NCBI GenBank assembly: GCA_016286165.1
Contig: JAEESE010000001.1
Location: 1-64,000, forward strand
Length of the DNA: 64,000 nt
Reading direction: 5' to 3'
Source: Bacteroidaceae bacterium
GTDB taxonomy: Bacteria; Bacteroidota; Bacteroidia; Bacteroidales; Bacteroidaceae
The notes under the pieces are model-generated. The model had not been told where the DNA came from, did not search any database, and saw only the letters and a list, made by a program, of their open reading frames with translations. The position numbers and the translations under genes are program-made. Numbering within the stretch: the first letter of the stretch is position 1; the number at the start of each line of letters is the position of its first letter. Shown here one piece after another: positions 117-37,746 of this stretch.

Positions 117-263
117 AGACCCCCTCTCCGCTCCCCTTCAAGGGGAGAGTAGAATGCTTTTGAGCGGATGAGGCTATTAGGGTCATTCTTTTAATTAATA
201 ATTTGTATACTATTCTTGAAAGTGACCACCCTCCCCCTCAAAGGGGGAGTGAGGAGGGGGTCT
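117..263 (-). repeat. Operon-junction hairpin element, copy A (rnfE/rnfA)
   Basis: A 147-bp element. Read along the mRNA (minus strand) it begins AGACCCCCTC, forms a hairpin with arms CTCCCCC/GGGGGAG, has an AT-rich middle with AAAAGAATGACCC, forms a second hairpin with arms CTCCCC/GGGGAG, and ends GGAGAGGGGGTCT. The two ends are near-perfect inverted repeats. It starts 2 nt after the rnfE stop and ends 6 nt before the rnfA ATG, so it occupies the whole intergenic space. Five further full copies are listed separately. Confidence 0.9.
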
Positions 264-265
264 CT

Positions 266-850
266 TCAGATTTTAGCAACCTTCTTAACGATAGCGATGA
301 GATAACCCAAGGCGATGAAAGCTCCGGGAGCAAGGACGAAGAGGAGCATACCGTAGTTCTCCGAGTAGATGGTCACATCGAATATCTTGCCGGTGCCGAG
401 AAGCTCGCGGATTCCACCGAGCAACGTCAAGGCAATGGTGAAGCCAAGACCTATACCGATGCCGTCGAAGAGGCTCTCGATGGGGCCGTTCTTTGCGGCA
501 AAGGCTTCAGCACGACCGAGGATGATGCAGTTCACAACGATGAGGGGAATGAACAGGCCGAGCGTCTTATAGACTTCAGGTGTATAGGCCTGCATGACCA
601 TCTGTAAGGCGGTGACCAAGGAGGCAATCACAACGATGTACGAGGGGATACGAACCTGATCGGGGATGAGGTTCTTGATGCACGAGATGATTAGGTTGGA
701 GAAGATGAGCACAGCCATCGTCGCCAAGCCCATCGACATACCGTTAATGGCGCTGGAAGTGGTTCCGAGCGTGGGGCACATACCAAGAAGAAGGACAAAG
801 GTCGGATTCTCCTTGAGGATGCCGTTCCAAAGAATCTTAATATATTTCAT
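266..850 (-). CDS. rnfE: RnfE, electron transport complex membrane subunit
   Basis: About 194 residues, an integral membrane subunit of the Rnf complex, homologous to RsxE and NqrD. The start chosen is the ATG giving MKYIKILWNGI, because GGAGGAAA lies about 7 nt upstream; a TTG five codons earlier is possible but less likely. The motif NPTFVLLLGMCPTLGTTSS near the N-terminus is typical of the family, and about six hydrophobic segments follow. It lies just downstream of rnfG and upstream of rnfA, the usual Bacteroidetes order B-C-D-G-E-A. Confidence 0.94.
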   Translation of the reverse strand: MKYIKILWNGILKENPTFVLLLGMCPTLGTTSSAINGMSMGLATMAVLIFSNLIISCIKNLIPDQVRIPSYIVVIASLVTALQMVMQAYTPEVYKTLGLFIPLIVVNCIILGRAEAFAAKNGPIESLFDGIGIGLGFTIALTLLGGIRELLGTGKIFDVTIYSENYGMLLFVLAPGAFIALGYLIAIVKKVAKI

Positions 851-868
851 ATTCGTTTCCTCCAATGG

Positions 869-1516
869 TTATTCCGGATTTGCCGGAGATTCAGGACTAT
901 CCGAAGTAGATGATTTGACATTTTGCTGAGCGGAAGCACCAGATTGAGCATCCGTAGCACTCGCTCCGGCATAAGCATGGTAAGCTACATTGACCGCACG
1001 AAGGAAGGCACGGGAGGTGATGGTGGAAGCGGTGATGGCGTCCACGTCGCCACCGTCCTTCGAGACGGTCAATTCCTTCTCTCCAGGATTCTTTCCAATG
1101 ATGTCGCCTTTTTCACCCTTCTGGAACCAGAAACCAGCCTTGGCGCCCAAACCTGGGGTCTCAGCATGGTCGAGGACAGTGTAACCCTTGATGGTGCCTT
1201 CTTCAGCAAAGCCGACGAGCACGCTCAGCTTGCCGCCGAAACCGTTGGGGTCGATAGCTTGCACGGCAACACCCTTGTCCGTCGTGTAGATGATGACGGG
1301 ATTGCCATTGGCATCCTCTGCCTCGGAAGTCTGCTGGACCTGGGCGTCAGCAACGCCCAGCACCGAGTTGATGCCTTCGGCAAGGGTGCGAGCCTTGTTC
1401 TCTTCAATGGGGCCTGCTGTAATCTTGTTCACGTAGGCCAAAGCTCCAGCTGCGATGACCGAGATGAGGGTCAGCACACAGAGCATATTGGGAAGTGTAG
1501 ATGGTAACTTTTTCAT
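869..1516 (-). CDS. rnfG: RnfG, FMN-carrying subunit of the Rnf complex
   Basis: A 215-residue protein with one N-terminal membrane anchor (residues about 9-28) and an FMN-binding domain exposed outside the membrane. The covalent flavin site is normally S-G-A-T; here it reads T-A-S-T in DAITASTIT, with Thr165 the expected attachment residue. GYTVLDHAETPGLGAKA (about 111-127) is the other family signature. The C-terminal 40 residues are Ser/Ala/Pro rich and probably disordered. The start overlaps the rnfD stop by 4 nt (ATGA), implying translational coupling. Confidence 0.94.
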   Translation of the reverse strand: MKKLPSTLPNMLCVLTLISVIAAGALAYVNKITAGPIEENKARTLAEGINSVLGVADAQVQQTSEAEDANGNPVIIYTTDKGVAVQAIDPNGFGGKLSVLVGFAEEGTIKGYTVLDHAETPGLGAKAGFWFQKGEKGDIIGKNPGEKELTVSKDGGDVDAITASTITSRAFLRAVNVAYHAYAGASATDAQSGASAQQNVKSSTSDSPESPANPE

Positions 1517-2490
1517 TTCTTGACCTCCCCGAAGCGTTTAGGTTTGACATAAGTGTTGATGAGCGGTGTGAAGCCGTTCATGATGAGGATGGCGAAGCTC
1601 ATGCCCTCGGGATAGCTGCCGAAGTCGCGAATGAGCACCGTCAGCACACCGATAGCCACGCCATAGATGATCTGGCCTTTACCAGTCATGGGTGAGGTGA
1701 CATAGTCCGTAGCCATGAAGCAGGCACCGAGCATGAGACCACCCGAGAGGATGACCTGAAGGGGATTGGCATAGCTGGGGTCGATGAGATGGAAGAGACC
1801 GGCGAGGACAAACACCGTGCCGAGGATGGACACGGGGATGTGCCAAGTGATGATCTTGCGCCAGAGCATGAAGCAGCAGCCGATGAGCAGGCAAAGCGCA
1901 CTGACTTCACCGAGGGAACCGCCCGTCTGACCAATGAGCATGTCGATGGATGAAGGCAGATTGCTGAGCAGGCTGGCATCGCCCGTCTTGATGGCTTCCT
2001 TCATGAGGGCCAGCGGCGTAGCAGCCGTCTCGACATCCACATAACCCATCTGACCGCTGACGGGCCAAGTAGTCATTTGTACGGGGAATGAGATGAGCAG
2101 GAACACACGGCCTACGAGTGCAGGGTTGAAGGGATTCGTGCCCAAGCCGCCAAACGTCATCTTGCCGATGCCGATGGCCACGAGAGCGCCGATGATGATA
2201 ATCCAGATAGGCAGGTTTGAGGGCAGGTTGAAGCCAAGCAGCAGACCCGTGAGGATGGCAGAGCCGTCGCAGATCGTCAGCTGCTTGCGACCGAGGATGA
2301 AGCGTGTGATGGCCCACTCAAAGAACACGCAAGCTGCCACAGACGTCGCCAGGACGATGGCAGACCCCAGTCCAAAGAAATAAAGCGAGGCGATGAGTGC
2401 AGGCACCAGCGCGATGCACACGCCGTACATATTCTTTTGCACCGAGTCGCCGCCATGGACGTGAGGTGATAGGGAAATTATTGGTTTCAT
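1513..2490 (-). CDS. rnfD: RnfD, FMN-carrying membrane subunit of the Rnf complex
   Basis: A 325-residue multi-pass membrane protein of the RnfD/NqrB family. It starts MKPIISLSPHVHGGDSVQ, contains SAILTGLLLGFNLPSNLP (about 77-94) and GGLGTNPFNPALVGR (about 114-128), and carries a flavinylation-type motif ETAATPL in which Thr158 is the expected covalent FMN site. It follows rnfC across a 146-bp hairpin element that ends 6 nt before this ATG and offers a G-rich Shine-Dalgarno-like run. It overlaps rnfG by 4 nt. Confidence 0.95.
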   Translation of the reverse strand: MKPIISLSPHVHGGDSVQKNMYGVCIALVPALIASLYFFGLGSAIVLATSVAACVFFEWAITRFILGRKQLTICDGSAILTGLLLGFNLPSNLPIWIIIIGALVAIGIGKMTFGGLGTNPFNPALVGRVFLLISFPVQMTTWPVSGQMGYVDVETAATPLALMKEAIKTGDASLLSNLPSSIDMLIGQTGGSLGEVSALCLLIGCCFMLWRKIITWHIPVSILGTVFVLAGLFHLIDPSYANPLQVILSGGLMLGACFMATDYVTSPMTGKGQIIYGVAIGVLTVLIRDFGSYPEGMSFAILIMNGFTPLINTYVKPKRFGEVKK

Positions 2491-2496
2491 AAGAGG

Positions 2497-2642
2497 AGAC
2501 CCCCTCCCCGCTCCCCCTCAAGGGGGAGATTTTAATGTAATGGAGCGGATGAGGCTAATAGGGTCATTCTTTTAAAATTAAAAATGTATGCAATTCATGA
2601 AAGGCGACCACCCTCCCCCCTTAAGGGGAATGAGGGGGGGCT
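2497..2642 (-). repeat. Operon-junction hairpin element, copy B (rnfC/rnfD)
   Basis: A 146-bp copy. Its AT-rich middle is very close to copy A (shared AAAAGAATGACCCTA and GCCTCATCCGCTC), with hairpin arms of C and G runs on both sides. It starts within about 2 nt of the rnfC stop and ends 6 nt before the rnfD ATG. Orientation relative to transcription is the same as copy A. Confidence 0.9.
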
Positions 2643-2643
2643 A

Positions 2644-4014
2644 TTATTTCTTTGTAATACTCTCCATATGCCTTGCCTTTATGATGCCCATCACGGTCTG
2701 CTTGGCCACACGGATGTTGTCGAGCAGCGGACGATTGGAGGGGCAGGTGAAGGCGCAGGAACCACATTCGATGCAGGAGGTGACGTCGTTCTTCTCGCAA
2801 CCATCCCAGTCCTTCAGACGGGTGTAAGCAGCGAGGAGGTAAGGCTCGAGACCCATGGGGCAGGCGCTGACGCACTTGCCACAACGGATACAAGGCGAAG
2901 CTTCACCACGACGACTTTCCTTCTCCGTCATAAGGAGCAGACCGCTGGAGCCCTTGGTGACAGGCACTTCGAGCGACATCAGCGCACGTCCCATCATGGG
3001 ACCACCGCCAATGATTTTACCTGTGTCTGCAGGCATACCACCTGCTTCGTCAATGAGTTGCTGCATGGGTGTTCCGATGCGCGCAAGGAAGTTGGAGGGT
3101 TGAGCAACGCTTTTGCCAGTCACCGTTATGATGCGCTCGATGAGCGGCTTGCGTTTTGTAACAGCCTCGTAGATAGCATAAACCGTACCTACGTTCTGCA
3201 CGATGGCACCCACGTTGATGGGCAGTGCAGGAGGTGCAGGCACCTGACGTCCAATGACGGCATCGATGAGCTGCTTCTCACCGCCTTGCGGGTACTTCAC
3301 TTTGAGAGGTACTACTTCGATGCCGGGGTACTGGGCAGCCTTCTCCTTGAGGAGGTCGGTGAGCAGCTTGATAGCATCGGGCTTGTTCATCTCGATGCCG
3401 ATGTAAGCCTTCGCGCAGTTCACGGCATGTTTGATGAGCTGAACACCTACGAGAATCTGTTCGGGCTTCTCGAGCATCAGGCGATGGTCGGCTGTTAAGT
3501 AAGGCTCGCACTCCACGGCGTTGACGATGATGGCCTCTGCCTTCGTTCCCGGAGGGGGCATGAGTTTCACACCAGTGGGGAAGGTGGCACCACCCATACC
3601 CACAATGCCTGCGGCCTTAATCCGGTTGACGACTTCCTCGGCTGTGATATTGCCAAGATCCTTCATCGTCACGAGTTTGTCTGAGCGGTCGATGTTCTCT
3701 TCCCATTCGTCGCCTTCTACGTCGACGACAACGGCCATGCGGCGTGTGCCGCTTGAGTCTAACACGGCATCAACCTTGCTGACCTTGCCGCTGACACTTG
3801 AGAAGACGGGTACGGAAAGACCCTTGCCGGCTTCGCCAAGCAGCGTACCTACCTTCACCTCATCGCCTTTCTTGACGACAGGCACGGCGGGAGCACCGAT
3901 ATGCTGGAACATAGAAAAGACAGCCTGCTTAGGGATCGCTGCCACTTTGATTGGCGAAGCAGCTGAAAGCTTATTCTCTGCGGGATGAACACCGCCAATA
4001 TTAAATGTCTTCAT
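2644..4014 (-). CDS. rnfC: RnfC, NADH-binding iron-sulfur subunit of the Rnf complex
   Basis: 456 residues. RnfC is the membrane-associated subunit that exchanges electrons with NAD(H) through FMN. The N-terminus (MKTFNIGGVHPAENK) and the barrel-sandwich domain precede the nucleotide/flavin motif GMGGATFPTGVK (139-150). Two 4Fe-4S motifs are intact: Cys375/378/381/385 (CIRCGKCVSACP) and Cys414/417/420/424 (CIECGSCAFTCP). The start overlaps the rnfB stop by 4 nt. The protein lacks the long Ala/Lys-rich tail found in enterobacterial RnfC. Confidence 0.95.
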   Translation of the reverse strand: MKTFNIGGVHPAENKLSAASPIKVAAIPKQAVFSMFQHIGAPAVPVVKKGDEVKVGTLLGEAGKGLSVPVFSSVSGKVSKVDAVLDSSGTRRMAVVVDVEGDEWEENIDRSDKLVTMKDLGNITAEEVVNRIKAAGIVGMGGATFPTGVKLMPPPGTKAEAIIVNAVECEPYLTADHRLMLEKPEQILVGVQLIKHAVNCAKAYIGIEMNKPDAIKLLTDLLKEKAAQYPGIEVVPLKVKYPQGGEKQLIDAVIGRQVPAPPALPINVGAIVQNVGTVYAIYEAVTKRKPLIERIITVTGKSVAQPSNFLARIGTPMQQLIDEAGGMPADTGKIIGGGPMMGRALMSLEVPVTKGSSGLLLMTEKESRRGEASPCIRCGKCVSACPMGLEPYLLAAYTRLKDWDGCEKNDVTSCIECGSCAFTCPSNRPLLDNIRVAKQTVMGIIKARHMESITKK

Positions 4015-5000
4015 GCTTTTTCTTGTTCTTTAGCGGGTTCAACATTCCCAGTCGGAGAACCGACGGGCACAGTGGCTTCCTTTGCGGCAGGCTTCTCTAC
4101 TGCGGGTGCAGCAGGCTTTTCTGTAGCGGGAGCGGCAGGCTTCTCTGCTGCAAGTGCTTCCACCTTCGGCTTCCTTGGCGGGAAGTTGAAGGCATGGATG
4201 GCGTTCTGCGGACATTCGTCCTCACACTTACGACAGAGCTTGCACTTCTCGGCATCGATGTAGGCGAGGTTAGCATCTACGGTGATGGCCTCGAACTTGC
4301 AGACCTTCACGCACTTCTGGCAAGCGATGCAACCTACGCTGCAGGCTTTGCGTGTCTGTGCGCCCTTGTCCTTGCTGTTACAAAGCACCACAACGCGGCG
4401 GTTCTTCAAGCCCTTTAGACGAATCTCGATGATGCCGCGCGGACAAGCCTTGGAGCAGGCACCGCAAGCGGTACATTTCTCTTCATCCACTTCGGGCAGT
4501 CCCGTTTCGGGGTTCATGTGGATGACGTCGAACTGGCAAGCAGCAACACAGTCGCCACAACCGAGGCAACCGAAGGCACAAGCCGTTTCGCCCGAACCCA
4601 GCATCTGCTGAACGCGGCAGCTCTGAGCACCGTCGAACTCTGCAATACGCGGACGGCTCTCGCATGTGCCGTTGCATCGCACGACAGCCACCTTCGGGGC
4701 ACTAGCCTCGGCTTTCATGCCAAGGATGTCGGCCACCTGTTCCATCACGGGCTGTCCGCCTACAGGGCAGAGCAACCCTTCGAGCGAGCCTTTATCGGCA
4801 GCTTTCACGCAAGCTCCGGCAAAACCGCCACAGCCGGGGAAACCACAGCCGCCGCAGTTGGCACCAGGAAGCACGCCTTGCACCTGACCGATGCGCTCGT
4901 CTTCATGCACAGCGAATTTCTTGCCGGCAAGAAACAGGATTAGCGCTGCCACCAGTCCGATGCTGCCAAGAACAATCACTGCAATCAGGATTACATTCAT
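4011..5000 (-). CDS. rnfB: RnfB, multi-cluster ferredoxin subunit of the Rnf complex
   Basis: 329 residues. An N-terminal membrane anchor (about 4-25) precedes the Fe-S motif around Cys49/52/57/78 (NCGGCGFPGCGG). Four further 4Fe-4S signatures follow between residues 141 and 264 (CLGCGDCVAAC, CTACGACSKAC, CIACQKCVKVC, CKLCRKCEDEC). RnfB accepts electrons from reduced ferredoxin. Residues about 277-329 form a Pro/Ala/Lys/Glu-rich tail with repeated EKPAAPA units, probably a flexible linker. It lies 28 nt after the rseC-like gene and overlaps rnfC by 4 nt. Confidence 0.95.
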   Translation of the reverse strand: MNVILIAVIVLGSIGLVAALILFLAGKKFAVHEDERIGQVQGVLPGANCGGCGFPGCGGFAGACVKAADKGSLEGLLCPVGGQPVMEQVADILGMKAEASAPKVAVVRCNGTCESRPRIAEFDGAQSCRVQQMLGSGETACAFGCLGCGDCVAACQFDVIHMNPETGLPEVDEEKCTACGACSKACPRGIIEIRLKGLKNRRVVVLCNSKDKGAQTRKACSVGCIACQKCVKVCKFEAITVDANLAYIDAEKCKLCRKCEDECPQNAIHAFNFPPRKPKVEALAAEKPAAPATEKPAAPAVEKPAAKEATVPVGSPTGNVEPAKEQEKA

Positions 5001-5028
5001 AAATTGTTTTGTGTTAAAAGTTTATTGT

Positions 5029-5448
5029 TTAATGTTTGATGCGGAATGAAAAGGATTGTTGCAAACGTTTACGGAAGAAGAGATAGATGACGACGTAGTA
5101 GAGGGCAACGGTAATCAAAGCACAAAGTGCGCCAAGCGGCTCGCTGCCTGTAAGTCGGATAGCGACGAATAGCACGGGCAACATGAGCAGCAGCGGCAGT
5201 CCGTAGGCTATGATTGCTGCACGACGGCCGTCGGTGAGACGTCCTTCGAGGACCACCTTCTGACCTACCTGATATAACGAAGCCTGCGGAGTGAAGACGT
5301 CCACGTCCTTCTCCTTGGCTTCGGCACTGGAACACATAGCTTTAGCGGCACATGCTGAACAGGCAGCAGTCTGCAGTATGGTAACCACAACCTTTTGGCC
5401 GTCAACAAGTTTCACAACCCCATCGTGCAAAATAAGCTCTTCTTTCAT
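5029..5448 (-). CDS. RseC/MucC-like positive regulator family protein
   Basis: 139 residues, first gene of the rnf operon. The N-terminal half has a cysteine cluster (C-S-A-C-x-A-K-x-M-C, about residues 31-40), and two membrane segments lie at about 82-123. This is the layout of the SoxR-reducing/RseC family, which accompanies rnf operons in many bacteria and is thought to assist Rnf-type complexes. A Bacteroidetes -7 box lies 33 nt upstream. The family match rests on Cys pattern, membrane layout and position; its biochemical role here is inference. Confidence 0.85.
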   Translation of the reverse strand: MKEELILHDGVVKLVDGQKVVVTILQTAACSACAAKAMCSSAEAKEKDVDVFTPQASLYQVGQKVVLEGRLTDGRRAAIIAYGLPLLLMLPVLFVAIRLTGSEPLGALCALITVALYYVVIYLFFRKRLQQSFSFRIKH

Positions 5449-5480
5449 TGAATTATGTGAACGTAACTTTACAAAAGCGG

Positions 5481-5490
5481 CACAAAGTTA
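5481..5490 (-). promoter_or_regulatory. Promoter of the rseC-rnf operon
   Basis: On the minus strand the -7 box TAACTTTG lies 33 nt before the rseC-like start. No clear TTTG -33 box is visible; instead CGCGCGCGTGTACAT sits just upstream, a sequence recurring near two other promoters in the window. Confidence 0.7.
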
Positions 5491-5503
5491 ATAATAATTA
5501 ATA

Positions 5504-5520
5504 TATGTACACGCGCGCGA
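5504..5520 (-). promoter_or_regulatory. CGCGCGCG-TGTACAT upstream element, copy 1
   Basis: Minus-strand CGCGCGCGTGTACAT, about 20 nt upstream of the rnf operon -7 box and overlapping the expected -33 position. A near-identical CGCGCGCGTACAT lies upstream of the glutathione peroxidase gene (about 13700) and a shorter CTCGTGTACAT upstream of rpsP (about 6330). It may be a regulator site or an AT/CG-rich structural element; the function is unknown. Confidence 0.35.
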
Positions 5521-5585
5521 AGAAAGAAAAGTGTGAGCTTTTAAGAATTTTAACACAAGGAGACATCTAAAATGAATTTAGTAGA

Positions 5586-5620
5586 CAAAAAGAAGGCGCG
5601 GCTTCACAGCCACGCCTCTT
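5586..5620 (-). terminator. rpsP terminator
   Basis: On the minus strand, stem AAGAGGCGTGGCT pairs with AGCCGCGCCTTCTT around a GTGA loop and is followed by a T run. It lies about 45 nt after the rpsP stop and upstream of the rnf promoter. Confidence 0.85.
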
Positions 5621-5663
5621 GTATGCTTGTTTGGAAGTATTGTAATTGTTGGAAGCTGTTGGT

Positions 5664-9203: not shown

Positions 9204-9205
9204 TC

Positions 9206-20324: not shown

Positions 20325-21602
20325 ATGAAAGTATTAATGTTCGGTTGGGAGTATCCTCCTCACGTCTTCGGCGGTCTCGCTACTGCCAATTATGGTATCA
20401 CGCACGGATTGAAAGCCCAAGGTGATATTGAAACGCTCTTGTGCCTGCCTCGTCCTTTCGGCGATGAAGAACAAGACGCTTGCAAGATTATAGGCATGAA
20501 CTCAGTACCCATTGCTTGGCGCGACGTCAACTACGACTACGTTCGTCAGCGCCTCGAAGGCATCATGTCTCCTGAGGACTATTATCGCTACCGTGATCAC
20601 TTATATGCAGACTTCAACTATATGCACGTCAACGACCTAGGTTGTATGGAGTTTGCAGGTGGTTATCCTAAGAACCTCACCGAGGAAATCAACAACTACT
20701 CTATTATCGCTGGTGTAGTGGCACGCACCGAGCAGTTCGACATAATACATGCCCACGACTGGCTAACTTACCCAGCTGGCATACATGCCAAGCAGGTTAG
20801 TGGCCGTCCACTCGTGATTCACGTTCACGCTACCGATTTCGACCGCTCGCGCGGCAACGTGAATCCTACAGTCTATGGCATTGAGCGTAATGGCATGGAT
20901 AATGCCGACTGCATCATGTGTGTATCCGAACTCACCCGTCAGACAGTAATTAACCACTACGGCCAAGACCCTGCCAAATGCTTCGCCATGCACAATGCCG
21001 TCTACCCATTGGCTCCAGAATTGCAGGAGATTGTAGACCAACGACAGCCTTACAAGGACCGCAAGGAGAAAGTTATAACCTTCCTCGGTCGTATCACTAT
21101 GCAGAAGGGGCCTGAGTACTTCATTGAAGCCGCCAAGCGAGTGCTGGAACGTACTCAAAACGTCCGTTTCTGCTTCGCCGGTTCTGGAGATATGATGGAT
21201 GCCATGATTGACATGGCTGCCGCTTATGGCATTGCAGACCGTTGTCATTTCCCAGGATTCATGAAGGGTAAGCAGGTGTTCGAGATATTCCGAGACTCGG
21301 ATGTCTACGTTATGCCTTCCGTATCTGAACCTTTCGGCATCAGCCCCTTGGAAGCCATGCAAAGCGGTGTGCCAAGTATCATCTCCAAGCAAAGCGGTTG
21401 CGCCGAGATTCTCGACAAGTGTATTAAAACCGACTACTGGGATATCGATGCCATGGCTGATGCCATGTACAGCCTCTGCACCAACGACGCCTTGCACGAA
21501 TATCTGCAGGTCGAAGGTAAAAAGGAAGTCGACGGCATCACATGGGAAAAGGTTGGCGTGCGCATACGCAAACTTTATGACCAGTGCCTCGCACGCTACT
21601 AA
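20325..21602 (+). CDS. Glycosyltransferase, GT4/glycogen synthase type
   Basis: 425 residues, GT-B fold. The N-terminus MKVLMFGWEYPPHVFGGLA is the donor/acceptor loop of glycogen synthase-like enzymes, with HAHDWLTYPAGI next. The C-terminal domain has FLGRITMQKGPEYFIEA and VMPSVSEPFGISPLEAM, whose E-P-F-G-I-S-P-L-E motif contacts the nucleotide sugar. It lies between a debranching enzyme and a GH57 amylase, so alpha-glucan synthesis is the likely role. The stop overlaps the first base of hairpin element copy C. Confidence 0.85.
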   Translation: MKVLMFGWEYPPHVFGGLATANYGITHGLKAQGDIETLLCLPRPFGDEEQDACKIIGMNSVPIAWRDVNYDYVRQRLEGIMSPEDYYRYRDHLYADFNYMHVNDLGCMEFAGGYPKNLTEEINNYSIIAGVVARTEQFDIIHAHDWLTYPAGIHAKQVSGRPLVIHVHATDFDRSRGNVNPTVYGIERNGMDNADCIMCVSELTRQTVINHYGQDPAKCFAMHNAVYPLAPELQEIVDQRQPYKDRKEKVITFLGRITMQKGPEYFIEAAKRVLERTQNVRFCFAGSGDMMDAMIDMAAAYGIADRCHFPGFMKGKQVFEIFRDSDVYVMPSVSEPFGISPLEAMQSGVPSIISKQSGCAEILDKCIKTDYWDIDAMADAMYSLCTNDALHEYLQVEGKKEVDGITWEKVGVRIRKLYDQCLARY

Positions 21603-21755
21603 GACCCACCCACGACCCCTCCCGAGGGAGGGGAAGTCTTGGGGATGGTAATCACATAATAAATAAGAATAATAACTTTTAACAATGACCCAATACACCC
21701 TCTAACAACGCGCCAGCCGCTCCCCTCCCTGCGGGAGGGGGCAGAGGGTGGGTCT
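21602..21755 (+). repeat. Operon-junction hairpin element, copy C (glycosyltransferase/GH57)
   Basis: 154 bp, the only copy serving plus-strand genes. It runs AGACCCACCC, hairpin CCCCTCC/GGAGGGG, an AT-rich middle with AACAATGACCC, hairpin CCCCTCC/GGAGGGG, and ends GGGTGGGTCT. Its first base is the last base of the upstream stop codon TAA, and it ends 7 nt before the GH57 ATG. Its orientation relative to transcription matches the minus-strand copies. Confidence 0.88.
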
Positions 21756-21762: not shown

Positions 21763-23352
21763 ATGAAAACAATTTGCTTATATTTCGAGATTCACCAAAA
21801 CGTACATCTCAAGCGCTATCGTTTCTTCGAGATTGGTAAGGATCACTACTATTTCGACGACTACGAGAACGAACGCGGCATAACAGAAACGGCCGAACGT
21901 TCTTATATCCCAGCTATCAAGACATTCATCGAGATGGCTAAACTCTATGGCAAGACTTTCAAGGTCGCTTTCTCCATCAGCGGATGCGCTATCGAACTAC
22001 TGGAGCAATACGCACCCGAGGTCATCGAGCTGCTGCAAGAGTTGAACGACACAGGCTGTGCTGAATTCCTCGCCGAGCCTTATAGCCACGGCCTCAGTTC
22101 CCTGGCCAATGAGGATGTCTTCCGCGATGAGGTAGCCCGTCAGGCCAAAAAGATGAAAGAGCTCTTCGGCAAGAAACCCACAGTACTGCGCAACAGCTCG
22201 CTTATCTATAGCGACGATATCGGCGGCCTCGTGGCCGACATGGGCTATAAGGGAATGATTGCTGAAGGCGCCAAGCACATCCTCGGTTGGAAGTCACCTC
22301 ACTTCGTATATCATTGCGCACAGAATCCCAACCTCAAGCTCTTACTCCGTGACTACAAGCTGAGCGACGATATATCACTACGTTTCAACGATTCATCATG
22401 GAACGAATATCCTCTCTTTGCAGACACCTACATGGATTGGATTGCACAGCTGCCAGAAGAGGAGAAGGTTATCAACATCTTCATGGAACTCTGCGCCCTT
22501 GGCATCTATCAGCCACTGTCGTCTAACATTCTCGAGTTCATCAAGGCTCTGCCTGCTGTGGCCAAGGAACGTGGTATTACTTTCGCTTTCCCGTCTGAGA
22601 TTGTATCGAAGTCGAAGAGCGTCGCACCCATGGAAGTACCTTATCCCATGAGTTGGAACGACGAAGAGCGTGACACCAGCTGCTGGCTCGGTAATGTAAT
22701 GCAGCGTGAAGCTTTCCAGAAACTCTATAGCGTTGCAGAGCGTGTGCTAATCTGTAAGGATCGTCGCATCACTCAAGATTGGGACCGCATTCAAGCCTCA
22801 AACAACTTCCGTTTCATGACGACAAAGAACATGGGCGTAGGCTTCTACCGCGGTATCTACGACAGTCCCTACGATGCTTTCACCAACTACATGAACATCC
22901 TTGGCGACTTCATCAACCGTGTGAACTCACTCTATCCTCTTGACATAGAGAACGATGAGCTCAACGCCCTGCTAACTACTATCCGCAACCAAGCCGACGA
23001 GATTAACGTCAAGGATGCTGAGATTACACGTCTGCAGGCTCGTTTGCAGAAGTATGAGAAGAATGAGGATGAGGCTGAAGAGAAACCTGCAGAGAAGAAG
23101 GCCGCACCTGTAAAGAAGGCTGCTCCGGCTAAGAAAGCTGTTCCAACTAAGAAAGCTGAACCTGCAAAGAAAGCTGCTCCAGCAAAGGCTGTTGCTACGA
23201 AACCTGTTGTAGCAAAGAAAGAAGAGCCGAAGAAGGCTGCTGCACCTAAGAAGGCTACACCTGCAAAGAAGGAGGCTACCGCCAAGAAGGCAGCACCAGC
23301 TAAAAAGGAGGCAAAGGTTCCAGCTAAGAAGGCTGCTCCCAAAAAGAAGTAG
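21763..23352 (+). CDS. GH57 alpha-amylase-family protein with histone-H1-like Lys/Ala/Pro tail
   Basis: 529 residues from the ATG (a GTG five codons earlier lies inside the repeat and is rejected). The catalytic GH57 domain spans about residues 1-390 (KTICLYFEIHQNVHLKRY, FLAEPYSHGLSSL, LRNSSLIYSDDIG). A predicted coiled coil follows at about 395-435 (DEINVKDAEITRLQARLQ). The last ~85 residues are a strongly basic tail of KKAAPAKK-type repeats. GH57 enzymes act on alpha-glucans; the cluster suggests an intracellular glycogen role. The tail resembles eukaryotic H1 or bacterial histone-like tails and is unexpected on a glycosidase. Confidence 0.88.
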   Translation: MKTICLYFEIHQNVHLKRYRFFEIGKDHYYFDDYENERGITETAERSYIPAIKTFIEMAKLYGKTFKVAFSISGCAIELLEQYAPEVIELLQELNDTGCAEFLAEPYSHGLSSLANEDVFRDEVARQAKKMKELFGKKPTVLRNSSLIYSDDIGGLVADMGYKGMIAEGAKHILGWKSPHFVYHCAQNPNLKLLLRDYKLSDDISLRFNDSSWNEYPLFADTYMDWIAQLPEEEKVINIFMELCALGIYQPLSSNILEFIKALPAVAKERGITFAFPSEIVSKSKSVAPMEVPYPMSWNDEERDTSCWLGNVMQREAFQKLYSVAERVLICKDRRITQDWDRIQASNNFRFMTTKNMGVGFYRGIYDSPYDAFTNYMNILGDFINRVNSLYPLDIENDELNALLTTIRNQADEINVKDAEITRLQARLQKYEKNEDEAEEKPAEKKAAPVKKAAPAKKAVPTKKAEPAKKAAPAKAVATKPVVAKKEEPKKAAAPKKATPAKKEATAKKAAPAKKEAKVPAKKAAPKKK

Positions 23353-31691: not shown

Positions 31692-31745
31692 AGCGCAAAT
31701 TTATTTCCGGAAGGCTTAAGACATCAGCCCTTCATTCAACAGGCA

Positions 31746-32276
31746 ATGACCAAACAAGAGATACGACAACATATCCGACAACTCAAGAAAGAGTGCACAC
31801 CAGAGCAGCTCCGGCAATTCTCCGACGCTGCATTAGAACACCTGCGCCAACTGCCTGAATGGCATGTTGCAACTACCATACTCCTATACGCATCCTTGCC
31901 CGACGAGGTTCCTACACAGGGCCTCATTGCAGAAGCTCTTGACGAAGGCAAAACGGTGCTGCTGCCTGTGGTACAAGGCGATGAACTGGAGTTACGCGAA
32001 TGCTCCGATTTACAGGACCTACGCCCTGGAGCTTTCAATATCGATGAACCGCAAGGGAAGGCTTTCACGCGCTACGAGGACATCGAACTCGCCATAATCC
32101 CCGGCATGGCTTTCACACCCGACGGCGAGCGACTCGGCCGGGGCCGGGGCTATTACGACCGTTTGATGCCGCATTTGGAAACGGCATTGAAAGTAGGCCT
32201 CTGCTGGCCGTTCCAATTGGTTGAAGAGCTCCCTGCCGAGCCACATGACCAGCCTATGGACATGGTAATATGCTAA
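31746..32276 (+). CDS. 5-formyltetrahydrofolate cyclo-ligase
   Basis: 176 residues. It starts MTKQEIRQHIRQLKKE; the nucleotide/substrate motif near the C-terminus is PGMAFTPDGERLGRGRGYYD, the family hallmark (G-x-R-L-G-x-G-x-G-Y-Y-D). It converts 5-formyl-THF to 5,10-methenyl-THF using ATP. GH43 follows 30 nt later and is probably cotranscribed, though the functions are unrelated. Confidence 0.93.
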   Translation: MTKQEIRQHIRQLKKECTPEQLRQFSDAALEHLRQLPEWHVATTILLYASLPDEVPTQGLIAEALDEGKTVLLPVVQGDELELRECSDLQDLRPGAFNIDEPQGKAFTRYEDIELAIIPGMAFTPDGERLGRGRGYYDRLMPHLETALKVGLCWPFQLVEELPAEPHDQPMDMVIC

Positions 32277-32306
32277 TAATTAATGTAACACCAAACACAT
32301 CTCATC

Positions 32307-33362
32307 ATGCGACGCACATTATTTATTCTCTTAGCCATTTTATTTGTCGGCACAATCTATGCTCAGCCACAGCGACGCTGGCGCCGCGAAGCCTTCACCA
32401 CCGACACTATGATGGTGCATGACCCGGTAATGGCGCAACAAGACGGCACCTTCTACCTCTATGCAACCGGCATGGGCGTTCAACTTGCCACTAGTAAAGA
32501 CCTCACTACGTGGACAGTACAACCGCATGGCGCCCTGACAGAAGTGCCCGCTTGGACGCGCGACAGCGTGCCTGGCTTCCGTTCTCACGTATGGGCACCC
32601 GATATCATCCGCTACCGCGACCGCTGGTGGATGGCCTACTCATGCTCGACCTTCGGGCGCAATACATCAGCCATAGGACTCGCGTCCTCCCCTACTCTTG
32701 ATTTCAATGACTCGCTCAACTACCGCTGGCGCGACGAAGGAGCACTCGTTTGCTCCCGCGAGCGGCGCGACCAATGGAATGCCATAGACCCCAATTTCAT
32801 CATCGATGCCGATGGACAACCATGGCTTACTTGGGGCTCGTTCTGGGACGGCATTCAACTTATACGCCTTAATCCCGAGACAATGCACGTGGCTGATGGC
32901 TGCAAACCTATGACCATAGCACGCCGCATAGCCATGCGCGACACGCTCTCGGCCGAGCCGAATCCCACTTCACGTCATGCTGGTCGCAACGCTATCGAGG
33001 CTCCGTTCATCTTCCGTCACGGAGATTTCTACTACCTCTTCGTGAGTCACGACTACTGCTGTCGGGGCGTCGACAGTAATTATAAAGTAGTAGTAGGACG
33101 AAGCAAAAAGGTTGAAGGACCATATCTCGACGACAAAGGGCGTGATATGAACGCAGGTGGAGGCAGACTCGTCATTCAAGGCGACCACCGAGAATTCGAG
33201 GCGGCCGGCCATTGCGCCGTTTACCATATCGATGGAGCCCAGCCTTACGACCTGTTTATCTGCCACGGTTACAACATCAAACTCAACGGTCAGGCCATTC
33301 TCATAAAGCGTATTATCGAATGGGATAAGGACGGTTGGCCTACATTAAAAGAAAAAAAGTAG
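32307..33362 (+). CDS. Secreted GH43 glycosidase (arabinanase-like)
   Basis: 351 residues with a signal peptide (MRRTLFILLAILFVGTIYAQ). The five-bladed propeller catalytic residues are visible: Asp39 in VHDPVM (general base), Asp161 in AIDPNFI (pKa modulator) and Glu231 in AIEAPFIF (general acid). HVWAPDIIRYRDRWWMAYS and FVSHDYCCRGVDSNYKVVVG resemble endo-arabinan 1,5-alpha-L-arabinosidases. Together with PL11 it suggests pectin side-chain use. The exact substrate is inference. Confidence 0.88.
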   Translation: MRRTLFILLAILFVGTIYAQPQRRWRREAFTTDTMMVHDPVMAQQDGTFYLYATGMGVQLATSKDLTTWTVQPHGALTEVPAWTRDSVPGFRSHVWAPDIIRYRDRWWMAYSCSTFGRNTSAIGLASSPTLDFNDSLNYRWRDEGALVCSRERRDQWNAIDPNFIIDADGQPWLTWGSFWDGIQLIRLNPETMHVADGCKPMTIARRIAMRDTLSAEPNPTSRHAGRNAIEAPFIFRHGDFYYLFVSHDYCCRGVDSNYKVVVGRSKKVEGPYLDDKGRDMNAGGGRLVIQGDHREFEAAGHCAVYHIDGAQPYDLFICHGYNIKLNGQAILIKRIIEWDKDGWPTLKEKK

Positions 33363-33420
33363 CAAAAAATTTGCTCATGTCGGATATTAGTACGACATTT
33401 GCAGCCGAAAACAAATAGTT

Positions 33421-33473
33421 GACGCAACAATCCTGTCAGGCCACGACGAGTGGTAACGCGGGATTGTTGCGTC
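33421..33473 (+). repeat. Hairpin in the leader of the unknown gene at 33565
   Basis: GACGCAACAATCC (33421-33433) pairs with GGATTGTTGCGTC (33461-33473) in a perfect 13-bp stem with a 27-nt loop. It lies between GH43 and the next gene; with no T tract it is not a standard terminator. A weak promoter-like sequence (TTTGCT, then CGACATTTGC) lies just upstream at 33370-33402. Confidence 0.55.
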
Positions 33474-33564
33474 GTTTCGTTTGCAGCAATCAAGCGGCTG
33501 ACCGCGCCGCCGCAGTCAAAGCCTACAGCGTTCTTTGTCTTATTGTCAAACATTGTTGCAAACT

Positions 33565-34050
33565 ATGAAAAAAAGAAAAGTCAACTGCATCTGCAGATGT
33601 ACGCCGCGACAAGGTATCGTGGCCATGAACGTGAAAGAGGCTAAGCAACTCTACGAACAACAGATGAGCGACATCGCTCAGCGCAAGAATCCAAGGCACA
33701 TTGCCGACATAGCCATACAAGTAGGCAACACTCTGCAACGAACCGGGCATCCGAGGCTCGCGCTTACGCTCATGAACGCAGCTCTCTCGCACCTGATCAG
33801 CGTAGACGAAAACCAGTTGCGATACTATGAACGATACGAACAAGTGCCTTCGTACTACACCGACTTCTACATGCCCTGGCGATGGCGAACGAGCGAAGAG
33901 GACGCAAGAAGGCTTGCCGCTGTAATCGACGAGCACTACAACGCGGTAAATCAGCGCCTTGGCTATGACGTTCGATCCCACCTGCGCTTTCGCATCCACG
34001 ACACCTACGAATCACTCTTCGAAGATATCTACGAAACGTGGCGTCAATAA
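33565..34050 (+). CDS. Unknown conserved-looking cytoplasmic protein
   Basis: 161 residues from the ATG at 33565; an alternative ATG at 33625 (MNVKEAKQLYEQQM) would remove a Cys-rich 20-residue start (VNCICRC). The body is helical, with VGNTLQRTGHPRLALTLMNA and SYYTDFYMPWRWRTSEEDAR, and no membrane segment or signal is seen. I do not recognise the family. Codon use fits its neighbours and a clear terminator follows, so it is probably real. Confidence 0.65.
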   Translation: MKKRKVNCICRCTPRQGIVAMNVKEAKQLYEQQMSDIAQRKNPRHIADIAIQVGNTLQRTGHPRLALTLMNAALSHLISVDENQLRYYERYEQVPSYYTDFYMPWRWRTSEEDARRLAAVIDEHYNAVNQRLGYDVRSHLRFRIHDTYESLFEDIYETWRQ

Positions 34051-34537
34051 TCCAGCCGGCAGTCCCCGCGCTGCCGATTAATCACCCCAATAAGCCCTTA
34101 AGGATTCGCTCACGAGTCCTTAAGGGTTTTTCTTTTATCTCTATCTCAAAGTTCTTTTTGACCAAATAAATTCTATAAATCACGATGTGATTTGATGACG
34201 TCACGTTGTGATTTATACAAATCTCGACGTGATTTATAGAAATCACAATGAGATTTTAAGAATACAACCAAAGGATGGAAAATATATGCCCGCAGTCATG
34301 TAATTTACAGATTGCGGGCATACATTTATTCTATTGCGGGCATACATTTATTCTATTGCAGCCAAGAACCAAAGGGATTAGTGGCGCAAAGAGAAGAAAT
34401 TACTGACTCAAGGAGAAAGTATTAGTTGCGCATGAGAAAAGTGTTAGTTGCACAGGAAAAAGGAATTAGCGACGCACAAGAAAGGATTTTGCGACGCACA
34501 GGAAAGGATTTTGCGACGCGTGGGAAAAGGCTTGCAG
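34051..34537. repeat. Non-coding region with a mosaic of short repeats
   Basis: 487 nt without a supported gene. After a terminator (34094-34130) come variants of AAATCACGATGTGATTT and GACGTGATTTATA-type words (about 34175-34256), then two direct copies of ATTGCGGGCATACATTTATT (about 34312-34355) paired with an upstream ATGCCCGCAGT, then degenerate units of GGAAAGGATTTTGCGACGC (about 34455-34525). Each sub-block has its own word. Confidence 0.7.
34094..34130 (+). terminator. Terminator after the unknown gene
   Basis: CCCTTAAGGA, loop, TCCTTAAGGG followed by TTTTTCTTTT, 45 nt after the stop. Confidence 0.88.
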
Positions 34538-35197
34538 TCAATCATCTATGCGCAAGCCGTCAATCTTCTCAAGCCGCTGGCGAAGAAGGGGCATTTGTGA
34601 GGCACGAATTGAGAGTTCCATCATGCAATCATTGTCGAACGTCTGCGAAAGGATGGCAGGTTCCACCTCCTTAACGACGCGCATGACAGCGTTCATGAGC
34701 ACATATTCAAAGTGTATACGAATGCGCTCATCTACTGTGCGTTCTACAATCTCTGCCGCAGCAATGGCTTCGGCTGCTGCTGCCTTGTATGCTTGTATGA
34801 GGCCGCTGGTGCCAAGTTTCACTCCTCCGAAGTAACGGACTACAATAATCAAGATGTCCGTAAGCTCATTCGAATTGATTTGTCCTAAGATAGGCTTGCC
34901 GGCTGTACCGCTTGGCTCGCCATTGTCGTTAGCCCTGAACACCAAACGCTCATGCCCAAGCATATATGCATAGCACACGTGGCGGGCATCATAATACTTC
35001 TTTTGATGTTCTTCGACCAGCGCCTTGATATCATCGACCGTAGAAACAGGAAAAGCGAAGGCAAGGAACTTGCTTCGCTTCTCCGTATATTGGCCCGATG
35101 AGGGCGAGGAAATAGTAAGGTAGGAATCAGCCCCACCCCCTTGTCCCTCCCTTGTAGAGAGGGGAGTAGTATCTTTTGTGGACAGGTTCTGATTCAA
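34538..35197 (-). CDS. YigZ/IMPACT-family protein whose ATG has been lost to a repeat
   Basis: About 195-219 residues. The IMPACT domain begins at SYLTISSPSSGQYTEKRSKF and continues through DARHVCYAYMLG, GEPSGTAGKPILGQI and VRYFGGVKLGTSGLIQAY, all family signatures; the C-terminal domain is EF-G-like. Family proteins are associated with translation or ribosome-related regulation. No in-frame ATG precedes the domain: the first possible start is TTG at 35197, inside hairpin element copy D. It would add about 24 repeat-encoded residues (TTPLSTREGQGGGAD). Either TTG is used or expression is impaired. Confidence 0.82.
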   Translation of the reverse strand: MNQNLSTKDTTPLSTREGQGGGADSYLTISSPSSGQYTEKRSKFLAFAFPVSTVDDIKALVEEHQKKYYDARHVCYAYMLGHERLVFRANDNGEPSGTAGKPILGQINSNELTDILIIVVRYFGGVKLGTSGLIQAYKAAAAEAIAAAEIVERTVDERIRIHFEYVLMNAVMRVVKEVEPAILSQTFDNDCMMELSIRASQMPLLRQRLEKIDGLRIDD

Positions 35198-35271
35198 TTC
35201 TTACAACTTAATGACAGCAACATTTGAGGGTATCCACCCTACCCCTAAAAGGGGGAGTGAGGAGAGGGTCT
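35129..35271 (-). repeat. Operon-junction hairpin element, copy D (DUF1015/yigZ)
   Basis: 143 bp. It begins AGACCCTCTCC within the DUF1015 stop codon (TAG shares AG), has both hairpins, and ends GGGGGTGGGGCTGATT. In the other copies an ATG lies 4-7 nt beyond this end; here the reading frame of yigZ continues back through the arm and no ATG is present. Confidence 0.85.
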
Positions 35272-36514
35272 AAAGTTTGTGAATAACCAACCCGCTCCTT
35301 AGCTTAGGCTCGAACCAAGTAGCCTTCGGAGGCATGATCTTACCGCTATCGGCGATGTCCATGATTTGTTTCATAGAAACGGGATAGAGGGCAAGAGCTG
35401 CACGCATTTCACCGCTGTCAACACGGCGTTTCAATTCGCCCAAGCCGCGCAGACCGCCTACGAAATCGATACGATTAGATGAGCGGAGGTCACCGATATT
35501 AAGTATCTCATCGAGGATAAGGCGCGAGGAGATGTCTACGTCGAGCACACCGATTGGGTCGCTCTCGTCGTATGTACCAGGCTTAGCCGTAAGCGCAAAC
35601 CAATGGCCATCAAGGTAGAGCGAGAACTCATGCAAGCGCTGAGGCTTGTAGATGTCCGTGCCCTTGTCCTCGACAGTGAAGTTCTTGCGCAGAGCATCGA
35701 GGAACGCTTCGCTCGACAAGCCATTAAGATCCTTGACCACACGATTGTAGTCGAGGATGGTGAGCTGCGAAGCCTGGAAGGCTACTGCCATGAAGTAGTT
35801 GTACTCCTCGTCGCCCTTGTGGTTGGGGTTCAACCGAGCTTTCTCCGCTCCTACCAAGGCAGCAGCCGCCGAACGATGGTGGCCGTCTGCGATGTAGAGC
35901 GACGGCATCTTGCGGAACTCCTCGGTTATGAGGGCGATGTCAGCAGCATCGCTGATAACCCAGAACTGGTGGCGGAAGCCGTCGATAGGAGCTATGAAGT
36001 CGTACTCGGGCTCCGTCTGTGCATAACGCTTCAGCAAGGCATCAAGCACAGGATTGTCAGGATAGGCAAAGAAGACCGGCTCGATATTGGCATCGTTCAC
36101 TCTAACGTGCTTCATGCGATCTTCTTCCTTGTCGCGACGCGTAAGCTCGTGCTTCTTGATGGTGCCGTTCATGTAGTCGTCCACGTATGCTCCGATGACA
36201 AGTCCGTACTGCGTCTTGCCGTTCATCGTCTGGGCGTAGATGTAGTAGTGCTCGTCCTTGTCCTGCACAAGCCACCCTTTCTTCTGGAAATGCATGAAGT
36301 TGTCGGCTGCACGTTCATAGACGGCAGGGTCGTACTCGCTCATACCTTCGGGGAAGTCTATCTCGGGTTTTATGATGTGGTAGAGCGACATCTCATTGTC
36401 GCCTGCCTCGGCACGTGCCTCCTCGGAATCGAGGACATCGTAGGGACGGCTCTCCACCTTCTCTACCAAGTCCTTAGGAGGACGCAAGCCACGGAAAGGT
36501 TTAATTGTTGCCAT
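35270..36514 (-). CDS. DUF1015 family protein
   Basis: 414 residues. It starts MATIKPFRGLRPPKDLVEKV and contains PPYDV-like VESRPYDVLDSEEAR, then YIADGHHRSAAAAL, the strongly conserved core of DUF1015. The biochemical function is unknown. In Bacteroidetes it regularly follows serC and serA, as here, which hints at a link to serine or one-carbon metabolism (inference). It is bounded on both sides by hairpin elements. Confidence 0.88.
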   Translation of the reverse strand: MATIKPFRGLRPPKDLVEKVESRPYDVLDSEEARAEAGDNEMSLYHIIKPEIDFPEGMSEYDPAVYERAADNFMHFQKKGWLVQDKDEHYYIYAQTMNGKTQYGLVIGAYVDDYMNGTIKKHELTRRDKEEDRMKHVRVNDANIEPVFFAYPDNPVLDALLKRYAQTEPEYDFIAPIDGFRHQFWVISDAADIALITEEFRKMPSLYIADGHHRSAAAALVGAEKARLNPNHKGDEEYNYFMAVAFQASQLTILDYNRVVKDLNGLSSEAFLDALRKNFTVEDKGTDIYKPQRLHEFSLYLDGHWFALTAKPGTYDESDPIGVLDVDISSRLILDEILNIGDLRSSNRIDFVGGLRGLGELKRRVDSGEMRAALALYPVSMKQIMDIADSGKIMPPKATWFEPKLRSGLVIHKL

Positions 36515-36518
36515 AATC

Positions 36519-36669
36519 AGACCCCCTCACGCACTCCACATAAGAGGGAGAGTGGGATGTATCACCACTATGAGTTTGAGGGTTTTACTTTTATAAGGTT
36601 AGACGAATTGATAACTATTCTTGGGAGCGACCACCCTCCCCCTCACAAGGAGAGGGAGGAATGGGGCCT
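36519..36669 (-). repeat. Operon-junction hairpin element, copy E (serA/DUF1015)
   Basis: 151 bp, the most diverged middle. It starts about 2 nt after the serA stop, and ends GAGGGGGTCTGATT immediately before the DUF1015 ATG (4 nt after GGGTCT). Confidence 0.82.
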
Positions 36670-36671
36670 CC

Positions 36672-37589
36672 TTATTTGTTCACCTGGAACTTAGTGATGC
36701 CTTTCTCCAAGAAGCCAACAATCTGGTTGGCTGCGGCGATACCTGCATTGACATTAGCCTCGGCCGTCTGAGCACCCATCTTCTTAGGTGTGGTGAAGTA
36801 ACGACCTTCGAACTTGGCGAATTCTGCGTCAGCATCGGGCTTGATGTCAGTAACATATTTCAGATCTTCGCGTTCTGCCATGAGAGCAAGCAGTTCGGGC
36901 TCGTTGATAACTTCCTTTCGTGCTGTGTTGACAAGAATGCCGCCCTTTGGCAGTTTGTTTACCAAAGCCTTGTTGATGCTCTGCTTGGTCTCGTCGGTAG
37001 CAGGGATGTGCAGGCTGACGATGTCGCTCTGCTCAAAGAGTTCGTCCTGCGAAGCTACAGCCTTTACGCCGGCTGCCTCGATAACCTCTGCGGGGCAATA
37101 AGCATCGTAGGCCAGAACGTCCATATCGAAGCCCTTGGCAATACGAGCCACATTACGGCCTACATTACCAAATGCGAGGATGCCGAGGCGCTTGCCTTTC
37201 AGCTCTGTGCCGCTGGTACCATTGAAGAAATTACGCTTTGCAAAGACCAAAAGGCCGAACACGAGCTCAGCTACGCTGTTGGCATTCTGGCCGGGCGTGT
37301 TCATAGCAACAACCTTGTGAGCCGTTGCGGCTTCGAGGTCAATGTTATCATAACCGGCACCTGCGCGCACTACTATCTTCAGCTGCTTGGCAGCGTCCAG
37401 GACCTCGGCGTCAACCTTATCGGAACGGATGATCATTGCGTCAACGTCCTTGACAGCATCGAGCAGTTGTGCCTTCTCGGTATATTTTTCAAGCAGGACG
37501 GTTTCATAGCCAGCGGCATCGAAGACCTCCTTAATGCCTTTCACAGCCACGCCGCTAAAAGGCTTTTCTGTTGCGATTAATACTTTCAT
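36672..37589 (-). CDS. serA: D-3-phosphoglycerate dehydrogenase, short form with Lys-type active site
   Basis: 305 residues from MKVLIATEKPF; ten upstream codons belong to the repeat. The NAD-binding loop is GILAFGNVGRNVARI (136-150), with catalytic Arg near RAGAGYDN (75-82). The usual catalytic histidine in T-P-H-x-G-A is missing: the sequence is TTPKKMGAQTAE (266-277). A Lys-containing short form without the C-terminal ACT domain is, from memory, known from Entamoeba and Bacteroides enzymes. It makes 3-phosphohydroxypyruvate, the substrate of SerC encoded just upstream. Absence of ACT implies no serine feedback through that domain. Confidence 0.92.
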   Translation of the reverse strand: MKVLIATEKPFSGVAVKGIKEVFDAAGYETVLLEKYTEKAQLLDAVKDVDAMIIRSDKVDAEVLDAAKQLKIVVRAGAGYDNIDLEAATAHKVVAMNTPGQNANSVAELVFGLLVFAKRNFFNGTSGTELKGKRLGILAFGNVGRNVARIAKGFDMDVLAYDAYCPAEVIEAAGVKAVASQDELFEQSDIVSLHIPATDETKQSINKALVNKLPKGGILVNTARKEVINEPELLALMAEREDLKYVTDIKPDADAEFAKFEGRYFTTPKKMGAQTAEANVNAGIAAANQIVGFLEKGITKFQVNK

Positions 37590-37592
37590 AAT

Positions 37593-37746
37593 CTGCCCCC
37601 CACCCCGCACCCTTCTCAAGGGGAGAGTGGAATGTTTTCCACTTGCGGCTATGGGGTTTGTTTATTAATGATTAAACTTCTTGTTCACTATAATTGAAAA
37701 ACGACCGCCCTCCCCTACCTTTCGGGAAAGGTTCGGGGGTGGGTCT
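37593..37746 (-). repeat. Operon-junction hairpin element, copy F (serC/serA)
   Basis: 154 bp. It begins AGACCCACCCCC 1 nt after the serC stop, shares AACAAACCCCATAGCC with the other middles, and ends GGGGTGGGGGGCAGATT directly before the serA ATG. Confidence 0.85.

Follow-up and report, generated by a model that had tools for sequence, protein, structure and literature searches.

Why should a palindromic repeat of about 150 bp keep a single orientation and lie almost exactly between the stop codon of one gene and the start codon of the next? The question is raised by the first 64,000 nucleotides of contig JAEESE010000001.1 from a Bacteroidaceae bacterium (assembly GCA_016286165.1), hereafter the window, in which an initial annotation noticed six copies of such an element with inverted AGACCC...GGGTCT-like ends. 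All six (c1 to c6; see the table) are at the places and with the ends described. The explanation that we consider probable is that these short copies belong to a dispersed family with long members that carry a DUF559 gene, that the DUF559 nuclease likely spreads the family, and that a start codon within the element is predicted to pass translation on to the next gene.

The left ends of c1 to c6 lie at +2, -1, -1, -2, +2 and +1 nt from the upstream stop codon, and the right ends of c1, c2, c3, c5 and c6 lie 6, 6, 7, 4 and 4 nt before an ATG, in agreement with the spacing first reported. From these six copies and nine others found with blastn, aligned in mRNA orientation, we built a covariance model, R1 (15 training copies). 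The window copies form one family, with R1 scores of 75–153 bits (all six are in the training set) and the element strand equal to the gene strand in six of six. This genome gives 86 R1 matches at E <= 0.05, both strands counted, which is a lower bound because scoring covered 150 of the 1002 first-look candidates; its window and fetched stretches hold at least 61 distinct element places at E <= 1e-3. At E <= 1e-4, matches are found in 18 of 41 genomes: besides this genome, in 16 of the 24 genus relatives and in a single, weakly matching outsider. Other genomes contain the exact right arm in 41 stretches; the titles of 39 give Bacteroidaceae or Prevotellaceae, and several name goat, sheep, yak or red deer; the family is dispersed in a bacterial group from ruminant guts. 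Its members have terminal inverted repeats, and their plan is two inverted hairpin repeats flanking a spacer. Rfam covariance models gave no match to the window at gathering thresholds, and nothing relevant was seen among the literature matches listed for Prevotella or rumen palindromic repeats, judged by title or abstract start.

Orientation was counted in three sets: this genome (61 places), the right-arm loci of other genomes (56 places, with nine below 43 bits removed by hand), and genomes G002, G005, G010 and G013–G018 (67 places, absent from model training but picked from high-scoring R1 matches only). Element strand was taken from R1, and counts were made at cut-offs of >=66 bits (142 places) or >=60 bits (103 junction copies). 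At >=66 bits, element and genes run in the same direction at all 96 co-directional junctions (32:0, 24:0 and 40:0, same to opposite, in the three sets) and in 34 against 3 copies inside genes (3:0, 16:1 and 15:2). Convergent gaps hold one, zero and two copies, divergent gaps none, and contig edges zero, four and two. Without a cut-off (184 places), the ratios are 113:5 at co-directional junctions and 44:10 in genes, with four convergent copies and eight at edges. Co-directional junctions thus contain 96 of 99 intergenic copies (>=66 bits), as compared with 45–59% of element-free intergenic bases and 65–78% of gene pairs at the same loci. Where the upstream gene is on the same strand (100 junction copies), the left end falls within -2 to +3 nt of its stop in 54, and this clustering is also seen where the right end falls inside the next gene. 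The single orientation and the near-zero distances to both codons therefore hold genome-wide and in relatives. A covariance-model search had been named beforehand as the test of these regularities, and it met with neither random orientation, nor frequent convergent placement, nor unclustered distances.

The asymmetry of the element shows in its reading frames. At the 103 junction copies of >=60 bits, the called ATG of the next gene lies 0–20 nt past the right end in 36 (class A; observed range 2–19 nt, mode 6 nt), inside the element in 37, at the element end in 5 and farther down in 25. In 59 of the 67 copies outside class A, an ATG of the element is open through the right arm in the frame of the next gene (21 expected from open frames), a count that is partly circular, as the gene caller itself picked those element starts. 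The 25 copies with a called start more than 20 nt downstream escape this circularity, since their start was not picked inside the element, and 21 of them have an element ATG in the frame of the gene, with about 8 expected. Forty-four of the 59 fusion starts lie 60–76 nt before the right end. On the sense strand, 78 of 103 copies have an element ATG with no stop before the right end; on the antisense strand, 25 of 103 do. Within class A, a mini open reading frame (mini-ORF) ends near the gene start in 10 of 36 copies (4 of 36 in the antisense control) and 6 copies could fuse in frame; an ATGA overlap with the next gene occurs in 4 copies. Translation, not RNA structure, is the asymmetric feature of the element, the translation of its ORFs being itself a prediction from their sequence.

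The next in-frame start past the element is 79 nt away in proB, 81 nt in hisB and 150 nt in the YigZ-like gene downstream of c4, in all three within the conserved domain. ProB of relatives begins with a short MKKR-IV or MR-IV, while in this genome and G018 the gene starts inside the element and the native start is gone, leaving a predicted element-derived N-terminal peptide, for example STLPLEGERGGG. This genome, G003 and G010 likewise lack the native start of N-acylglucosamine 2-epimerase (MID-F or similar); the element-derived replacement ends in REGQGGGS directly before the F, and is one codon longer in G003. A variant element has a fused start that encodes a signal-peptide-like segment such as LLAQVTTPSL (L099 1935–2095, L095 3119 and 5626, L260, L262, L291 and L067), and one copy of it precedes lgt.

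The link to DUF559 (Pfam PF04480) comes from genes of that family found between the same arms. Inverted hairpin arms surround DUF559 genes at 24 of 30 genus loci (flank score >=30; 3 of 33 loci were dropped for lack of a tblastn match), as compared with 1 of 103 control genes of 250–650 nt, and every one of the 24 bracketed units runs in the direction of the genes on either side. In 15 of them, the distance from the upstream stop to the left arm is -13 to +15 nt; the stop is further inside in 3 and 140 nt away in 1, and in 5 the gene caller merged the upstream gene with DUF559. Eight units are followed by a called gene start 4–25 nt past the right arm; in 15 the start of the next gene falls within the unit, and in 1 it is 55 nt distant. 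In the unit at L036, the arms span 510 nt and enclose a DUF559 ORF of 123 residues. The unit upstream of fmt in this genome has the same plan, with the fmt ATG within the last DUF559 codons (ATGAATAA, 8-nt overlap). This genome has five DUF559 units, in two of which the upstream gene reads through the left arm into DUF559; at L134 (2202–3749) and L306 (199–1839), such read-through of the host gene gives a C-terminal nuclease-family fusion.

The short copies resemble these units. Arms of this genome's units match its own short copies, that of L306 being identical over 36 nt, and c1 aligns to the L036 unit minus the ORF, with its AATGACCC stretch matching the sequence just past the DUF559 stop (score 29; none of 500 shuffles exceeds 26). 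The initial annotation had placed this motif or a variant in many of the AT-rich centres; its exact sense-strand form is present in c1, c2 and c3 and in no other window copy. It is better read as a putative start codon lying just 3' of the position of the DUF559 gene in long copies. Across 25 genomes, DUF559 count and R1 element count are correlated (Spearman 0.64). In the wider phylum, DUF559 occurs in 78 of 148 genomes, and outside the genus 11 of 27 DUF559 loci are in long frames. In the two of these 11 that were read (L334 and L336), arm-like peptides adjoin DUF559 in frame within very long frames; L334 encodes an N6/N4 DNA methylase, in which GGRRPGEG-like peptides lie next to DUF559. Among the matches listed from open-licence literature, no report of DUF559 with hairpin arms was found, which is weak evidence of absence.

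DUF559 itself appears to be a Vsr/homing-nuclease-like family that resembles the homing endonuclease I-Bth0305I, judging from sequence profiles and a predicted model. A profile search returned as PDB relatives the endonuclease-like protein 3hrl (E 4e-21) and the mobile intron protein 3r3p (I-Bth0305I; E 1.6e-7). The AlphaFold model (predicted local distance difference test, pLDDT, 86) matched 3hrl (E 1e-7), I-Bth0305I (E 2e-5) and, weakly, Vsr in Foldseek. Invariant residues include D58, E69, D71 and H75, which are probably catalytic.

The element is not confined to junctions, and to say that it fills them, as the initial annotation did, is too narrow for the family: other members are embedded in frame within genes or provide a C- or N-terminal extension. 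The rnfE–rnfA gap, measured in 17 genus relatives without the element there, is 2–28 nt in 14, of which 9 have 2–9 nt; between rnfC and rnfD, gaps of 12–54 nt without the element are common and some are much longer. In-frame palindromes inside conserved protein genes are found in pyrF, fmt and the gene of an NtrC-like regulator. In pyrF of this genome, G003, L064 and L066, arm peptides occupy two loops that flank a native helix, and the DNAs of the two loops are inversely complementary (scores 59–64, shuffled maximum 20). Other relatives have native loops or different fillers: in the list of the 120 nearest protein-database relatives, one loop or both are lengthened in 73, both loops are native in 44, and 3 were unparsed. 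The AlphaFold model of PyrF (mean pLDDT 73) places the insert segments 173–187 and 215–240 below pLDDT 50, with the helix 193–213 between them. The internal insertion in fmt is confined to this genome among those compared (10 of 18 relatives were parsable there). Among in-gene copies with canonical ends, 19 of 28 lengths are 1 modulo 3, eight of them 115 nt, and the lengths of 80 junction copies are more even (31, 28 and 21), which hints at a fixed net insertion length in genes. Different repeats occupy the same sites elsewhere, in pyrF loop 2 at L166 (G017) and L168 (G015) and in the rnfC–rnfD gap at L137 and L139. These alternative fillers include QIVKSSN peptide repeats, tandem spacers and, at L139, an insert in the rnfC–rnfD gap that looks coding and lies next to AATTCATAATT repeats. 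We presume that this insert resembles a four-helix-bundle protein.

We propose that a promoterless unit would insert behind the stop codon of an upstream gene, and that its DUF559 ORF would be read from the host operon mRNA. Translation would then pass to the next gene in one of two ways: the ORF would stop beside or overlapping the ATG of that gene, or the two would be fused through the right arm. The short copies would be non-autonomous derivatives of this DUF559 mobile element, having lost the ORF and kept the arms and often the start codon, and the nuclease may mobilise them in trans. Their mini-ORFs and N-terminal extensions would be translated, and selection for uninterrupted translation would fix the orientation. 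Persistence in operons is predicted because the element start codon, in the orientation seen, would hand translation to the next gene. Whether all this amounts to a new kind of mobile element, a pair of arms around a homing-nuclease-fold DUF559 that has no promoter, lives in operons by taking over translation, even replacing the starts of core enzymes, and sheds short copies bearing a start codon, is a bolder proposal that we put forward tentatively, as possible and not yet as likely.

Several observations weigh against this account. Genes were called with our own codon-usage script, which is not a standard caller, and the counts contain orthologous copies and hence non-independent events, so that nominal p-values overstate the case from orientation. 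Target-site duplication is absent (identical flanks of >=3 nt in 0 of 111 copies), and insertion is therefore not directly seen; complementarity of the flanks past the arms is about the marginal expectation overall, with a small excess at ±3 (48 versus 39.7) and ±5 (39 versus 30.6; n = 111). In class A, 20 of 36 copies lack both a mini-ORF that ends close to the gene start and an in-frame route into the gene. The pyrF arms bracket native sequence, which insertion as one block fails to explain. On the DUF559 side, 6 of the 30 genus loci lack arms at a score of >=30, the presence or absence of DUF559 and of the element taken alone is not significantly associated (Fisher p 0.08), and element-rich G017, an assembly 80% complete, gave no DUF559 match. 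Outside the genus, arms are found at 13 of 27 scorable DUF559 loci (1 of 12 controls; 2 of 29 loci were dropped at contig edges), and 4 of these 13 are not co-directional.

The initial annotation had supposed that the element acts in the mRNA, its outer stem sequestering a G-rich ribosome site or processing or insulating the transcript, with orientation kept for the sake of RNA function. Consistent with such a device are the strong predicted folds of c1 and c2 (z -5.4 and -2.8 relative to shuffled sequences) and the right ends 4–7 nt before an ATG in five of the six window copies, but c4 folds no better than shuffled sequence (z -0.17). At paired outer arm positions, an RNA stem on the sense strand should accept G-U over A-C mismatches, and a DNA palindrome should favour neither. 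Junction copies of >=60 bits have 118 G-U and 121 A-C mismatches in 22-nt arms, 90 and 94 in 14-nt arms, and 262 and 293 in 45-nt arms; in-gene copies have 26 and 29 (22-nt arms). On this near equality we reject RNA-level selection on the stem, and action by mRNA pairing is not supported. The 3' G-run, proposed as a Shine-Dalgarno-like site, is unneeded in the 59 fusion copies, because their start codon lies 60–132 nt upstream of the right end, and other copies lie within coding frames. We consider an mRNA device highly improbable. The added peptides could instead be domesticated N-terminal tags or regulators that are beneficial and selected, as the fusions with signal-peptide-like starts and the frame preserved among the orthologous epimerase copies in three species would allow. 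In unrelated enzymes, however, the peptides follow the DNA sequence of the arms, AlphaFold models most of the pyrF inserts as low-confidence coil, and insertions are patchy between close species, and of all explanations we give this one the least credence.

Two other explanations concern how the copies come to be where they are. A neutral repeat, like a miniature inverted-repeat transposable element (MITE) or a REPIN, would survive only where it is harmless, with translation incidental and orientation arising from some harm of the reverse copy. The patchy distribution in the genus, the insertion at a junction with a short native gap and the relaxed divergence seen when one pyrF insert is compared in this genome and G003 (6 nonsynonymous and 1 synonymous codons) would all fit. 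Convergent and divergent gaps, however, should be the safest sites, and they hold 3 of 99 intergenic copies (>=66 bits) versus 41–55% of element-free intergenic bases; the element ATG is also in frame far above expectation. A neutral repeat is, in our judgement, unlikely. Alternatively, insertion might be linked to transcription or translation, with machinery that places the element, always one way round, at the stop codons of transcribed operons (by way of R-loops or mRNA, for example), making the pattern mechanistic instead of selected. The clustering of left ends at the stop, which persists when the right end is inside the next gene, and the similar left-arm placement in 15 of 24 DUF559 units are what such insertion would produce. 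In-gene copies, however, lie away from stop codons, we know of no enzyme with stop-codon targeting of that kind, and a pile-up at the stop can arise by selection, as native gaps in relatives are often short; we hold linked insertion to be quite unlikely.

Translatable palindromes are already known, namely the Rickettsia palindromic elements (RPE), ERIC, YPAL and MIRU, going by passages of published accounts. In those accounts, RPE are palindromes of 100–150 bp within existing genes with the frame preserved. The present family is set apart by description, being found in Bacteroidales, mostly at operon junctions and in one orientation, with many copies supplying a start codon and long copies carrying DUF559. 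ERIC and the Yersinia palindromic (YPAL) MITEs are likewise described as short translatable palindromes fused in frame to genes; going by description, their host and plan are different and no nuclease partner is named in the portions covered. MIRU are described as apparently mobile repeats with start codons as insertion sites, whose internal ORF is coupled at -4 nt to the gene, to which the ATGA overlaps seen here correspond; hairpin arms, in-gene copies and long forms with DUF559 set the present family apart by description. Our counts show a co-direction with neighbouring genes (96 of 96 at >=66 bits, 113 of 118 without a cut-off) of the MIRU type. MIRU lie in the same direction as their flanking genes. 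The REPIN-RAYT plan includes gene-bearing long copies with like ends. The family also shares with REPIN and REP sequences a pair of inverted hairpins with a spacer between them, an abundance of short copies, and long copies with a gene between like ends; unlike them, it encloses DUF559 and has a fixed orientation. A RAYT-like transposase (PF01797), suggested earlier as a possible partner, was found neither in this genome (G000, 92% complete) nor in element-rich G015, G017 and G018. Six of 25 genomes have some match, which is weak in G003, G007, G010 and G016 and partial in G003, G010 and G016; element-rich G003 and G016 offer weak partial matches only, and we reject a RAYT partner. DDE-type MITEs share the terminal inverted repeats and differ in the target-site duplication that is lacking here. 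DUF559 is similar to I-Bth0305I in fold and sequence, and weakly to Vsr in fold, and a nuclease-family gene inside the element is reminiscent of homing endonuclease-type elements; I-Bth0305I, however, is titled a mobile intron protein, and here DUF559 lies between hairpin arms with no intron seen.

The window copies and other repeats of the window are collected in the table. At c4, which has no ATG close downstream, the YigZ-like frame from TTG 35197 reads LNQNLSTKDTTPLSTREGQGGGADSYLT, and the gene scores just below the YigZ family cut-off. In the orthologous rnfC–rnfD copies of L034 and L069, the mini-ORF and the next start overlap as ATGA.

Positions of the six element copies, associated frames and further repeats in the window
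Feature	Positions	Strand	Remarks
c1	117..263	-	rnfE-rnfA junction (rnfA presumed, from its N-terminus); 5' arm 210-263, 3' arm 117-168; rnfA ATG 6 nt past right end
Mini-ORF of c1	115..186	-	AATGACCC ATG to TGA, 23 codons, stop 4 nt before rnfA ATG; predicted translation
c2	2497..2644	-	rnfC-rnfD junction; 5' arm 2591-2640, 3' arm 2497-2549; mini-ORF broken
c3	21602..21755	+	Glycosyltransferase-like gene to unnamed gene; lowest score of the six (75 bits)
c4	35129..35271	-	Unnamed gene to YigZ-like gene; start of YigZ-like frame lies in element
YigZ-like frame	34538..35197	-	TTG start at 35197 inside c4; family match from residue 25
c5	36519..36669	-	Phosphoglycerate-dehydrogenase-like gene to unnamed gene (the one also upstream of c4)
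c6	37593..37746	-	serC to phosphoglycerate-dehydrogenase-like gene
Coding repeat	23059..23321		Lysine/alanine/proline-rich, 18 nt, near end of gene downstream of c3
Direct repeats	44542..44625		Two of 40 nt, each ending ATACGACCGGTCGTA, start-to-start spacing 44 nt

On the bolder proposal, dozens of host genes would now begin their translation within a selfish element. The proposed account also implies a likely repeat origin for the N-termini of a number of Bacteroidales enzymes. The DUF559 domain, of unknown function, becomes a candidate mobiliser for the palindromic repeats of G000, G015, G017 and G018, where no RAYT was found. The strict orientation rule would be explained through translation instead of RNA structure, and the persistence of repeats in dense operons becomes testable.

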